DNA of 64,000 nt from Murinocardiopsis flavida. Lineage in GTDB: Bacteria; Actinomycetota; Actinomycetes; Streptosporangiales; Streptosporangiaceae. Numbering within the stretch: the stretch's first letter is position 1; every line of letters starts with the position of its first letter. The translations under genes were made by a program, and so were the position numbers. The stretch spans positions 310,001 through 374,000 of the forward strand of contig NZ_PYGA01000003.1 of assembly GCF_003014485.1 (NCBI RefSeq), written 5' to 3'. The notes under the pieces are model-generated. The model had not been told where the DNA came from. It did no database searches and saw nothing but the letters and a program-made list of their open reading frames with translations. This document shows, piece after piece, positions 18,595-63,327 of the stretch.

Positions 18595-18645
18595 TCCGCT
18601 CGGCCCGCAGGCCGCGGGCCCGGGCGAATGTGAGTCTGCACACCC

Positions 18646-18674
18646 GTGACATCCGGTCGCCGACCTCGTACCAT
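18646..18674 (+). promoter_or_regulatory. Promoter of the sulfur leader peptide
   Basis: GTGACA (18646-18651), a 17-base spacer and TACCAT (18669-18674) form a good housekeeping-type promoter. The GTG of the leader peptide follows 7 bases after the -10, so the transcript would start on the start codon and be leaderless. Confidence 0.65.
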
Positions 18675-18681
18675 CGGACAC

Positions 18682-18771
18682 GTGACCCACCCGACAGAAG
18701 AGCTGCTGACGAAGCGACGCGCGGTCGATCTGCTCCGCGTCGCCAGCGCCATCTGTCACGTTTCCCGATAG
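18682..18771 (+). CDS. Putative regulatory leader peptide (uORF)
   Basis: A 29-codon ORF starting GTG and ending TAG, with the core LLTKRRAVDLLRVASAICHV. This resembles the short actinobacterial leader peptides found upstream of sulfur-metabolism genes, typically with an R-R/H-x-D-L-x-R-V-x-S-A-x-C pattern. The cysteine near the end (codon 25) would let ribosome stalling sense Cys-tRNA and control the downstream genes. It starts leaderless from the promoter at 18646. DUF4395 begins 103 bases after its stop, and the intervening RNA could hold the attenuator. It is too short for ordinary gene calling. Confidence 0.75.
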   Translation: MTHPTEELLTKRRAVDLLRVASAICHVSR

Positions 18772-18874
18772 GCCAGACCGCCGGGTCGCCGTCGACCCCC
18801 GCCGGACGCCTTTCCGCCGCACGCGCGCGGCCGTCCCCGATTCCGCACAACGGACTCGTCGCTGGGAAACCCAC

Positions 18875-19303
18875 ATGCAGGTCGATCCCCGCGGGCAGCG
18901 CTTCGCCGCAGCCCTCACCTCCGCCGTACTCGCCGCCGTACTGATCACGGGTAGCGCATGGCTGCTCGCCGCGCAGGCCGCGGTGTTCCTCGTCGGGGCG
19001 GTGGCCGGTGTCCGCTACTCGCCCTACGGCCTCCTGTACGCCCGGCTGCTGCGCCCCCGCCTGGGGCCGCCGCCGGAGTCCGAGGCGCCGGGGCCGCCGC
19101 GGTTCGCGCAGGCGGTCGGCGCGGCGTTCAGCGTCGCGGGCCTCGTCGGCCTCCTCGCGGGCGTCCCGGTGCTGGGCCCCGCAGCGGTCGCCGCCGCGCT
19201 CTTCGCCGCCTTCCTGAACGCCGCGTTCGGGCTGTGCCTGGGCTGCGAGGTGTACCTGCTCCTCCGGCGCGCGCTCCCGGGCGACCGCGCCGCGGCCGCC
19301 TGA
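18875..19303 (+). CDS. DUF4395 membrane protein
   Basis: A 142-residue integral membrane protein with about four hydrophobic segments and the motif FGLCLGCEVYLLL near the C-terminus, a CxGCE cysteine pair typical of DUF4395. It begins MQVDPRGQRFAAALT, also family-typical. The cysteine pair suggests thiol redox chemistry or sulfur transfer at the membrane. It is the first gene after the leader peptide and is followed 65 bases later by the sulfurtransferase. No transported species has been shown for the family to my knowledge. Confidence 0.85.
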   Translation: MQVDPRGQRFAAALTSAVLAAVLITGSAWLLAAQAAVFLVGAVAGVRYSPYGLLYARLLRPRLGPPPESEAPGPPRFAQAVGAAFSVAGLVGLLAGVPVLGPAAVAAALFAAFLNAAFGLCLGCEVYLLLRRALPGDRAAAA

Positions 19304-19368: not shown

Positions 19369-20208
19369 ATGAGCCGCTCCGACGTCCTCGTGGACGCCGA
19401 CTGGGTGGAGGCTCACCTGGACGATGCGAATGTGGTTCTCGTCGAGGTCGACGAGGACACCTCGGCATACGACAAGGGCCACATCCGCAACGCCGTCAAG
19501 ATCGACTGGAAGAAGGACCTCCAGGACCCCGTCCGCCGCGACTTCATCGACCGGACCGGATTCGAGGCGCTGCTCTCCGAGCGCGGCATCGCCAACGGCG
19601 ACACCGTCGTCCTCTACGGCGGCAACAACAACTGGTTCGCCGCCTACGCCTACTGGTACTTCAAGCTGTACGGGCACGAGAGCGTCAAGCTCCTCGACGG
19701 CGGCAGGAAGAAGTGGGAACTCGACTCCCGCGCGCTGGTCGAGGAGGTCCCGCAGCGCCCGGCGACCCAGTACACCGCCAAGGAGCAGGACACCTCGATC
19801 CGGGCGTTCCGCGACGAGGTGGTGGCCGCCATCGGCACCAAGGACCTGGTCGACGTCCGCTCGCCCGACGAGTTCACCGGCAAGCTCCTCGCGCCGGCGC
19901 ACCTGCCGCAGGAGACCTCGCAGCGCCCCGGGCACATCCCGACCGCGCGCAACATCCCGTGGTCCAAGACCGCCAACGAGGACGGCACGTTCAAGTCCGA
20001 CGAGGAGCTGCGCGGACTCTACAGCGAGGCAGGCGTCGACCTCGACAAGGACATCATCGCCTACTGCCGCATCGGCGAGCGCTCCTCGCACTCCTGGTTC
20101 GCGCTGCGCGAGCTGATCGGCGTCCCGAACGTGAAGAACTACGACGGCTCGTGGACCGAGTACGGCTCGCTCATCGGCGTCCCGGTGGAGCTCGGGGAGG
20201 GCGCATGA
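19369..20208 (+). CDS. Thiosulfate sulfurtransferase (rhodanese)
   Basis: A 279-residue tandem-rhodanese protein. The N-terminal domain is inactive (no catalytic Cys), while the C-terminal domain carries the catalytic cysteine at about residue 233 in IAYCRIGERSSHSWF. The loop CRIGERS is typical of thiosulfate:cyanide sulfurtransferases and the actinobacterial CysA/SseC group, which transfer sulfane sulfur. A strong AAGGAGG (19356-19362) precedes the ATG. The stop overlaps the DUF1416 start (ATGA). Confidence 0.92.
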   Translation: MSRSDVLVDADWVEAHLDDANVVLVEVDEDTSAYDKGHIRNAVKIDWKKDLQDPVRRDFIDRTGFEALLSERGIANGDTVVLYGGNNNWFAAYAYWYFKLYGHESVKLLDGGRKKWELDSRALVEEVPQRPATQYTAKEQDTSIRAFRDEVVAAIGTKDLVDVRSPDEFTGKLLAPAHLPQETSQRPGHIPTARNIPWSKTANEDGTFKSDEELRGLYSEAGVDLDKDIIAYCRIGERSSHSWFALRELIGVPNVKNYDGSWTEYGSLIGVPVELGEGA

Positions 20209-20513
20209 GCACGGGAGCGGGCTGCGGAGCGCCGGTCGGCGGGGTCGCCCTCGCCGACGCCGACGGCGACCAGGCGGTCATCCAGGGCGTGGTCACCCGC
20301 GACGGCGAGCCGCTGAGCGGAGCCTACGCCCGACTGCTGAACGACTCCGGCGACTTCGTCGGCGAGGTCGCCACCGGCGCGGAGGGCACGTTCCGCTTCT
20401 TCGCCGCCGACGGCGACTGGACCGTGCGGGTCCTCGCGTCCAAGGGCTTCACCGGCGAGTACGCGGTGCGGGCGCAGACCGGCGCGATCGCCGAGCTGGC
20501 CGTGCTGGCCTGA
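20205..20513 (+). CDS. DUF1416 protein
   Basis: A 102-residue protein with the family N-terminus GAGCGAPVGG and a carboxypeptidase-regulatory-like beta sandwich (IQGVVTRDGEPLSGAYARLL, FRFFAADGDWTVRVL). DUF1416 (SseC-like) almost always follows a thiosulfate sulfurtransferase, and the ATGA overlap here indicates coupled translation. It probably assists the sulfurtransferase, but its biochemical role is not established. A strong terminator follows 16 bases after the stop. Confidence 0.9.
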   Translation: MSTGAGCGAPVGGVALADADGDQAVIQGVVTRDGEPLSGAYARLLNDSGDFVGEVATGAEGTFRFFAADGDWTVRVLASKGFTGEYAVRAQTGAIAELAVLA

Positions 20514-33282: not shown

Positions 33283-33314
33283 CGCAGACAGCAGGAAAGG
33301 AGGTGGTCCGAACA

Positions 33315-33353
33315 GTGATTTCTCATCGGACTTGCGAGGTGTCCGTCCGCTAG
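33315..33353 (+). CDS. 12-codon ORF with near-perfect extended Shine-Dalgarno
   Basis: GTG at 33315 reads ISHRTCEVSVR then TAG. It is preceded at 33296-33309 by AAAGGAGGTGGTCC, complementary to 13 of 14 bases of the 16S rRNA 3' end, far stronger than any other ribosome-binding site here. A promoter is visible at 33253 and a 7-base hairpin (33438-33444 with 33449-33455) lies about 85 bases downstream. No rightward gene follows until 34387, so it would be a free-standing short mRNA. It could be a regulatory peptide, a leader, or an RNA that binds 30S subunits. I do not recognise the peptide. Confidence 0.5.
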   Translation: MISHRTCEVSVR

Positions 33354-33486
33354 GGCGCGATGCTGATTGCGGAGTCGCTCTGGCGAATCCACATCTGGAC
33401 ACCCAGGCCCTCGGGCGACCGGACTTGTCCGCCGGTCCTCCGCCACCCGGCGGAGAGCACGCCCGGGGGTCTGCCCATGCCCGCGG

Positions 33487-38144: not shown

Positions 38145-39122
38145 ATGCCGGAGCGGGGACACGGTGCGGTGCGCACGTACGGGCGGCGCGGCGGCCGCCG
38201 GCTCCCGCCGTACGCGCAGAAGCCCCGGCAGCGGCTCGGCCTCGGCGTCATGAGCGTGCTCGTCGTCGGCCTCGGCGCGCTGGGATTCGCGGCGTTCCTC
38301 GGTGTCGCGGCCCTTTTCGACGGCGACAGGGCGCACGCGTCGGGCGCCGACCCGCTGACCCTCCGCCCGCCGCAGGCCGCCGGCACCCCCGACGAAGGCA
38401 CCGGCGAAGGCGGCCCCGACGCGCTCGGCCAGAGCCCGCTGTACTCCGCCGGAGAGCTCGCCGAAGCCGAGTGCCCCGCCCCGAAGCTCGACGCCGAGGA
38501 CTCCGCGTCGATGGAGCGCTACCTGCACCGCATGACCGACTGCCTCGACACCGCGTGGCAGACCGAGTTCGAGCAGCGCGACCTCGCCTACAGCGCGCCC
38601 ACCCGCGTCTACTGGACCAGGTCCGGCAACAGCCCGTGCGGCGAGTACCCCGCCAACGGCTCGGCCGCGTTCTACTGCCCGTCGAACAAGGGCCTCTACC
38701 TCGGCGTCGAGGACATCGTCGCGTCGAGCGACGGTGTGGAGCACCCCGAGGCGTACACCTTCCTCCTCGGCCACGAGTACGGCCACCACGTGCAGTCCGA
38801 GGCGGGCATCCTCGACGGCTTCCGCAAGGCCCGCGGCGACGCGGCCGACGGCGAAGGGCGCGACAACCTGACCCGCCGCAGTGAACTCCAGGCGAACTGC
38901 CTGAGCGGGGCGTTCCTCGGGGCCGCGCGCAAGAGCTTCCCCATCGGCGGCCGCGAGCGGGCGAATATCCTCGAAGACGCCGGGCGCCGCAGCGACCGCG
39001 ACACCACGGGCCGCGAGCACGGCACACCCGGCAACGCCGAACTGTGGACGAAGCACGGAATGGACCGCCGCGACCCCGCGGCGTGCAACACCTGGCAGGC
39101 AGGGGAGGAACTGGTCGAGTGA
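38145..39122 (+). CDS. Neutral zinc metallopeptidase (copy 1)
   Basis: A 325-residue, membrane-anchored metallopeptidase (YpfJ/KPN_02809 family). One transmembrane helix (VMSVLVVGLGALGFAAFLGVA) follows an Arg-rich cytoplasmic N-terminus. The extracellular domain has the zinc motif LLGHEYGHHVQ (about residue 207-217) and the downstream RRSELQANCLSGAFLG with the third ligand Glu. Four cysteines in SPCGEYPANG, AFYCPSNKG and other positions fit disulfides. The second copy at 39209 shares all motifs. Substrate unknown; envelope proteins are likely. Confidence 0.9.
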   Translation: MPERGHGAVRTYGRRGGRRLPPYAQKPRQRLGLGVMSVLVVGLGALGFAAFLGVAALFDGDRAHASGADPLTLRPPQAAGTPDEGTGEGGPDALGQSPLYSAGELAEAECPAPKLDAEDSASMERYLHRMTDCLDTAWQTEFEQRDLAYSAPTRVYWTRSGNSPCGEYPANGSAAFYCPSNKGLYLGVEDIVASSDGVEHPEAYTFLLGHEYGHHVQSEAGILDGFRKARGDAADGEGRDNLTRRSELQANCLSGAFLGAARKSFPIGGRERANILEDAGRRSDRDTTGREHGTPGNAELWTKHGMDRRDPAACNTWQAGEELVE

Positions 39123-62878: not shown

Positions 62879-63170
62879 CTAATCCGCCTCTCACCAGGAT
62901 GCGATCGCGCGCGCAGCGGCGGACCACGGTCCACCGCGCGCTCGGAGTGGGTTTCGCCCCGGAGGACGCGGCGCAAACCCGTTTTGTCCGTTGCGCTGAG
63001 CCGTTTCGCGCGGCTTCGCGGGCGTTCGCCCGCCCGGGGCGCCGATCCGTCCGCCGTGGACGGGCCGGAGTGACCCGTGTCACCCGGGATGGAGAAGCGG
63101 GCGCGCCGTCGGTTACAGTGACCAACGGACCAGGGTGATCGATCACCCCGGCCCCCACAACTTCACATTG
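62879..63170. other. Intergenic region, otsA to thrC leader
   Basis: Divergent spacer. It contains TACAGT (63115-63120), a possible -10 for thrC, inside GGTTACAGTGACC, and the perfect 16-base palindrome GGGTGATCGATCACCC at 63133-63148, whose ATCGATCACC recurs at 63290-63299 within the riboswitch. Otherwise nothing recognisable. Confidence 0.5.
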
Positions 63171-63312
63171 CTCATCCAGAGGGGTGGAGGGACCGGCCCT
63201 GCGAAGCCCCGGCAACCATCTCGGCGTTCGACTCCCGCATTAACAGGAGCGGGGCGGCCGGGACAGGTGCCAACTCCGGCCCGGGATCAAATCGATCACC
63301 GGGGCAGATGAG
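63171..63312 (+). promoter_or_regulatory. SAM-I (S-box) riboswitch
   Basis: Closing stem P1 CTCATC (63171-63176) with GATGAG (63307-63312). Within it are the conserved S-box core: AGAGGGGTGGAGGGACCGG, then GAAGCCCCGGCAACC, and later GGTGCCAACTCCGGCCCGG. The Shine-Dalgarno GGGGAG (63313-63318) abuts P1, and CCTC at 63321-63324 can pair with GAGG at 63310-63313, so SAM binding could govern translation of thrC. The Shine-Dalgarno placement argues for translational rather than terminator control. Confidence 0.88.
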
Positions 63313-63327
63313 GGGAGACACCTCGCA

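Follow-up and report, generated by a model that had tools for sequence, protein, structure and literature searches.

The leader peptide that precedes the DUF4395-sulfurtransferase-DUF1416 operon of Murinocardiopsis flavida is best read as belonging, in a single-cysteine form, to an already known family of cysteine attenuators with leaderless translation, and comparison of such leaders brings out an unexpected feature: one cysteine of the peptide is encoded almost invariably by UGU, in peptides that use UGC elsewhere. The window, by which is meant the whole stretch of 64,000 nucleotides that was analyzed, had been given a sequence-only reading in which a short cysteine-containing leader was proposed to control a sulfur operon. 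This idea is right in outline but not new, since leaders of this sort were already predicted in 2005 and put forward a second time in 2015.

The cysteine-bearing ORF of 29 codons that had been placed ahead of the DUF4395, sulfurtransferase, and DUF1416 genes is confirmed by its translation (VTHPTEELLTKRRAVDLLRVASAICHVSR*), by the domain matches of the genes that follow, and by the model NF042934 (cis_reg_atten, “putative leader peptide”), which the peptide matches at 39.3 bits against a cut-off of 27 (E = 3.3e-10), its residues 8–25 aligning with positions 2–19 of the 19 in the model. The cysteine proposed as sensor is likewise found at codon 25, as TGT (Table 1). The match GTGACA-17-TACCAT is the sole promoter match in 18595–18900 (shuffled sequences: mean 0.0, S.D. 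0.1), and the GTG at 18682 begins 7 nt past the end of its −10 box, TACCAT; from this spacing, the mRNA would start at the leader GTG and would be translated without a Shine-Dalgarno sequence. The suggestion that the ORF begins at a predicted transcription start fits this spacing and has support from the comparison of leaders, but 18646, from which the element had been drawn, is the −35 box; a second, longer in-frame ORF of 41 codons is possible from a GTG at that position. TANNNT lies 6–8 nt ahead of an in-frame ATG or GTG in 108 of 166 distinct leaders (spacing 7 in 78, 6 in 27, and 8 in 3), as compared with 51 of 2812 control codons with TANNNT at 5–9 nt; the signature is absent in the other 58 leaders, including two of the five in M. 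flavida (L003 and L005).

Table 1. Features of the leader, its promoter, and the genes that follow, in positions of the window
Feature	Position	Strand	Basis or remark
Promoter GTGACA, 17 nt, TACCAT	18646..18674	+	consensus scan; TANNNT spacing across leaders
Leader peptide ORF, 29 codons, putatively leaderless (start GTG 18682, stop TAG 18769-18771)	18682..18771	+	NF042934 match, 39.3 bits
Conserved core L-T-K-R-R-A-V-D-L-L-R-V-A-S-A-I-C, Leu(-16) to candidate sensor Cys	18706..18756	+	leader comparison
Candidate Cys sensor codon UGU, codon 25, sole Cys of the leader	18754..18756	+	UGU here in 160/166 distinct leaders
Candidate anti-RBS GUUUCCC	18760..18766	+	complementarity to RBS; within the leader part that would be covered by a ribosome stalled at UGU
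Spacer, leader stop to DUF4395 start, 103 nt	18772..18874		
DUF4395 RBS GGGAAAC	18864..18870	+	perfect complement of 18760-18766
DUF4395 protein	18875..19303	+	domain search (PF14340, 5.3e-46)
Rhodanese-type sulfurtransferase, two rhodanese stretches	19369..20208	+	domain search (PF00581, 1.4e-35)
DUF1416 protein	20205..20513	+	domain search (PF07210, 4.5e-33); ATGA overlap with sulfurtransferase

A sulfur or cysteine metabolism operon 3′ of the leader is a feature of the polycysteine leaderless attenuators, and the DUF4395, rhodanese, and DUF1416 genes provide it here. The sulfurtransferase may be called CysA2-like from its place in the operon, a name given by analogy, and the DUF1416 protein is presumably SseC-like. 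Two other elements were recognized in the window on the same strand, a SAM riboswitch (RF00162, 73.8 bits, 63169–63314), just past which an ORF (L248) reads by eye as threonine synthase, and a match to the actinobacterial sRNA Ms_IGR-5 (76.4 bits against a gathering threshold of 45, 33288–33478).

The codon usage at the cysteine that closes the conserved core, here called position 0, was compared after the component sets of leaders, which overlap and several of which contain the window, had been pooled and made distinct, giving 166 leaders with L209 left out. Position 0 is UGU in 160 of these, UGC in two (L147 and L177), and otherwise in four, and the conserved cysteine at −7 is UGC in 102 of 109 leaders. 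In the component sets, TGT stands at position 0 in all 55 distinct cores upstream of DUF4395, a table from which L066, L067, and L072 were omitted because their cysteine, also TGT, lies one codon later (L066 and L072 are counted among the four others of the 166); in all 34 leaders ahead of mixed genes; in 28 of 29 phylum-wide loci; in 37 of 38 among 40 further loci, the remaining two having no cysteine there; and in all 29 leaders from the 30 closest DUF4395 loci. For leaders with cysteine runs, an alignment without gaps served to fix position 0. Exceptions include L177, in which the codons are swapped (TGT at −7 and TGC at 0), and L191 and L194, family matches with no cysteine at position 0.

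The bases that follow do not account for the bias, since the pair of codons at −7 and 0 is UGC/UGU in 57 of the 59 cases in which CGN comes next after each. Among leaders with fewer than four cysteines, UGU is found at position 0 in 150 of 151 and at 12 of 140 of their other cysteine codons; the corresponding figures for leaders with at least four are 10 of 11 and 28 of 61, so that the contrast at position 0 is clear only outside cysteine runs. As for background usage, all 26 cysteine codons in 11 M. flavida genes are UGC and none is TGT, and TGT accounts for 22 of 137 cysteine codons in DUF4395 genes and for 44 of 222 in the longest ORFs that lie downstream. Because the leaders were searched for at the protein level, selection among synonymous codons is unaffected by the search. 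Five tRNA-Cys matches were obtained in M. flavida with patterns that admitted the GCA anticodon only; two of them were confirmed by ARAGORN, both with anticodon GCA. With UGU and UGC read by the same anticodon in the tRNA-Cys genes found, differences in isoacceptor charging would not explain the preference for UGU; its cause has to be sought in decoding rate, tRNA modification, or local contacts of the RNA. It may be noted separately that the two tRNA-Cys genes are clearly different (L154, 1469–1542, and L155, 1470–1542, G000:C7), and that a similar pair of anticodon-arm types was seen by eye in 12 of 61 genomes searched, M. flavida included. No statement of the UGU bias was found in the portions of the literature covered by our search, and it may be reported in the 2020 work of Canestrari or be visible in codons shown in figures. 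In the sections of a related article that were available, cysteine codons are described as lowering the G/C skew of six regulatory ORFs of M. tuberculosis (PMC9094748).

Leaders of this type are widespread and are not tied to a single gene. The M. flavida genome (7.38 Mb in 75 contigs) contains five such leaders (E up to 0.01), of which two score above the cut-off; in addition to the one ahead of the DUF4395-rhodanese-DUF1416 operon, leaders precede a nitrite/sulfite reductase gene, which a phosphoadenylyl-sulfate reductase gene adjoins, an FMN reductase gene (best NCBIfam match SsuE, under its cut-off), and a gene for a symporter of the SDF family. A cysteine-type leader (L002/L011) also precedes the gene for the α subunit of a 2-oxoacid:acceptor oxidoreductase of the pyruvate/2-oxoacid:ferredoxin type, which is not a sulfur assimilation gene, and the end of this leader is a nearly perfect complement of the RBS. 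In the host family, matches with E up to 0.01 occur in 147 of 150 genomes, and in 142 a match exceeds the cut-off, as against 0 of 14 controls; across the phylum, at least 25 of 396 genomes have a leader with E no higher than 1e-4, the count being a minimum since at most 22 candidates were scored per genome.

With an HMM trained on 26 cores, part of them from loci later searched, a leader was found ahead of DUF4395 in 63 of 80 actinobacterial loci; the HMM had replaced a regular expression that was too strict: by insisting on VDL or something close to it, the expression recovered few leaders. A match in L075, which would be the 64th, was rejected as off-site. No leader was found in up to 1500 nt upstream of DUF4395 in the other 17 loci, and 16 of these (L057, L062, L075, L077, L079, L081, L084, L086, L087, L088, L098, L102, L107, L110, L115, and L118) bear genus names that we take to belong to the Micromonosporaceae; the Micromonosporaceae loci L065, L085, and L092 do carry a leader, so that a loss would be partial. 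Among the 30 closest DUF4395 loci, one of which is the window itself, a leader is present in 29, L209 among them, L207 being the one without. The genome concerned, G031, has two matches to DUF4395; no leader was found for the copy in L207 (G031:C177), and the other copy (G031:C355, 39085–39510) has a leader match at 38838–38891, about 190 nt upstream.

The leader is probably a cysteine-responsive, ribosome-mediated attenuator that acts chiefly on the initiation of translation. On an mRNA beginning at the leader GTG and translated without a Shine-Dalgarno sequence, a ribosome supplied with ample Cys-tRNA would get past UGU, terminate at the stop codon, and depart, after which GUUUCCC could pair with the GGGAAAC of the DUF4395 RBS, and expression of the operon would stay low. 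When Cys-tRNA is scarce, the ribosome would stop with UGU in its A site and shield GUUUCCC, leaving the RBS free. The halt would probably be prolonged by the nascent peptide L-x-x-R-[RL]-x-V-D-L-x-R together with the wobble-read UGU, so that a single cysteine codon might be enough.

The position of the complementarity in the orthologue set points to such a switch. In scans that were designed after the complementarity had been noticed by eye, and hence were not blind, and that cover 81 loci among which related sequences are not independent, complementarity to the RBS in 16-nt sliding windows reaches its maximum between offsets −2 and +4, counted from where UGU ends (at offset 0, z −0.76 and t −6.2 within loci), and these offsets are the sole ones that clearly beat composition shuffles (t −2.2 to −3.8). 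Under the same conditions, leader ends paired with their own RBS beat swapped pairs (z −3.5, with 3 of 5000 permutations as good), which is covariation. The 81 are the distinct loci among 89, which include 25 of 28 further loci and for which a revised gene-start rule was applied; left out were L198, which is the window itself, and L225 and L226, whose starts are unclear. An earlier and weaker duplex test, which took 24 nt of the leader end and located gene starts by a simpler rule, had found own pairs better than swapped pairs in 40 of 63 loci (p = 0.019) and no significant gain over shuffles (p = 0.13). By eye, the relative L199 has CUUCCC opposite GGGAAG. In M. flavida, the 2-oxoacid oxidoreductase leader has the same geometry at −21.2 kcal/mol, a strength reached in 0 of 274 other windows and in 0.6% of shuffles; the FMN reductase leader also has it, less firmly (0 of 161 windows and 9.0% of shuffles as strong), and the leaders of the sulfite reductase and the symporter have no such complementarity between leader end and RBS.

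For the leader studied here, masking of the downstream RBS is supported by complementarity across the 81 loci, and folding of its own sequence gives no such support. Pairing with its RBS that is at least as good is seen in about 3 of 116 other windows (the best, at offset +26, with −15.3 as against −14.0), and its own pairing is equalled by 5.6% of shuffles. The anti-RBS helix is absent from the modeled minimum energy folds, whose stability is no better than that of shuffles (z −0.82 and −0.30), and folding of the whole leader, unremarkable in this case, was dropped as evidence for the switch. In the opening model, a stalled ribosome does not make the RBS easier to open (stalled 6.7, free 6.2, shuffled leader 7.6). 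In a set of 62 loci, RBS opening exceeded the shuffled-leader null in 34 (p = 0.015) and the stalled state in 42 (p = 5e-5); this accessibility model, modest in the locus set and negative for the window, was also set aside. The comparative evidence favors the leaderless start, the cysteine sensor codon, and the control of a sulfur operon that the sequence-only reading called for, but not the part of it that made the 103-base spacer the switch: the spacer as a whole is probably not the switch, what appears to matter is pairing of the last codons of the leader with the RBS where the spacer ends, and folding of this leader region alone showed nothing unusual.

The conservation of the peptide admits another interpretation, that the leader is an arrest peptide and not a sensor of starvation. 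Nascent L..RR.VDL.R would then bind the exit tunnel and bring the ribosome to a halt, the signal being a sulfur metabolite or the modification state of tRNA-Cys, with UGU as part of the halt site. Arg −13 is present in all 162 leaders with cysteine at position 0, with all six arginine codons in use, so that a residue fixed as such with varied codons contrasts with the nearly fixed codon at position 0; Asp −9 is found in 161, Leu −16 in 159, and Arg −6 in 155 of the same leaders, positions upstream of −17 are little conserved, and in 32 of the 162, the window leader among them, there is a single cysteine from −17 to the stop. It should be noted that these frequencies are biased upward, since the leaders were found by a profile, HMM, or regular expression of the motif, which favors its conserved residues, and that the cysteine runs in leaders of one mycobacterium-like genus are what codon starvation would predict. 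An arrest peptide of this kind is a possible but rather unlikely account.

Attenuation through Rho, of the type known from the E. coli tna operon, appears unlikely. The untranslated, C-rich spacer would load Rho unless a ribosome halted at UGU shielded its start, and the composition of the stop codon and spacer (C 0.45, G 0.29) is compatible with this, as is the finding of 0 terminator-like sites in 18595–18900, by which the leader also differs from a classical transcription attenuator; Rfam covariance models gave no riboswitch or leader match at E up to 1 in 18595–18950. Rho was proposed for the mycobacterial cys leaders in the consulted part of the 2005 study (PMC1262725). However, the intergenic stretch ahead of the sulfurtransferase gene is by eye likewise C-rich, so the bias may be general, and the covariation between leader end and RBS is left unexplained. 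That the peptide functions as a microprotein and regulates nothing in cis is very improbable, since selection at the peptide level would agree with it but similar peptides precede different genes, synonymous UGU is favored at one position, and the N-terminal part is little conserved. Nothing was found in favor of a chance ORF, an idea that can scarcely be maintained in view of the NF042934 match (E = 3.3e-10) and the presence of such leaders before DUF4395 in 63 of 80 loci.

Returning to the attenuator that probably controls translation initiation, we suggest tentatively a more specific model, in which the actinobacterial cysteine sensor is not a run of cysteines but one position, a wobble-read UGU that follows a selected nascent peptide of 16 residues and precedes the anti-RBS. 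Such leaders might take advantage of the slowness of G-U wobble decoding, which sulfur modification of tRNA-Cys perhaps tunes, and combine it with an arrest-type peptide, so that one codon becomes a sharp sensor; the cysteine runs could be an elaboration in mycobacterium-like genomes. The results would extend cysteine attenuation from the studied polycysteine leaders of mycobacteria to leaders with one or two cysteines, and they bear on the question of how the gain of an attenuator is governed by wobble decoding and by the nascent peptide where the same anticodon reads both codons.

Among known systems, polycysteine leaderless short-ORF attenuators are reported to have been demonstrated experimentally in mycobacteria by Canestrari in 2020, with translation from the first base of the mRNA, expression that goes up when cysteine is limiting, and an mRNA structure that is said to hide the downstream RBS except when the ribosome stalls. 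The run of cysteine codons that characterizes them is absent from the window leader, which has one. The window leader agrees with NF042934 in everything that the model tests, a protein profile that holds no codon or RNA information. The Ms5788A family (NF042933, leader_Ms5788A, an equivalog model) comprises a leaderless uORF ahead of a cysA2-type operon, an arrangement that the window leader would share, but it has a cysteine run, and the window leader, with its one cysteine, scores 36.5 bits, below the family cut-off of 45. The LTKRRAVDL core is much alike in genomes with cysteine-run leaders; UGU stands at the aligned position in 8 of 8 leaders of genus g71, and several of its cysteine-run leaders are followed, by eye, by rhodanese- or DUF4395-like genes.

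The prediction of cysteine leader peptides for actinobacterial cys operons dates from 2005 and concerns Mycobacterium, P. acnes, and B. longum, where the portion of the study consulted describes runs of cysteine codons near the stop, with Rho as the proposed effector (PMC1262725); like the window leader, they are short cysteine-containing uORFs ahead of a cys operon and lack a terminator, and they differ from it in those runs. In the sections of the 2015 report by Shell that were available, leaders of M. smegmatis, including a leaderless uORF of the cysA2/Msmeg_5788 operon, are occupied by ribosomes and put forward as attenuators (PMC4633059), and a review, as far as consulted, states that work in 2020 found cysteine leaders to regulate the genes 3′ of them in M. 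smegmatis (PMC9031893). The choice of codon in the control region matters in the classical transcription attenuators of E. coli and Salmonella, for which the theory, in the part of the article seen, rests on several isoacceptors (PMC1183508). The window leader resembles these in that codon choice appears to matter, but differs in that they have a terminator and it has none, and in that their several isoacceptors stand against tRNA-Cys genes that, as found here, both carry the anticodon GCA.
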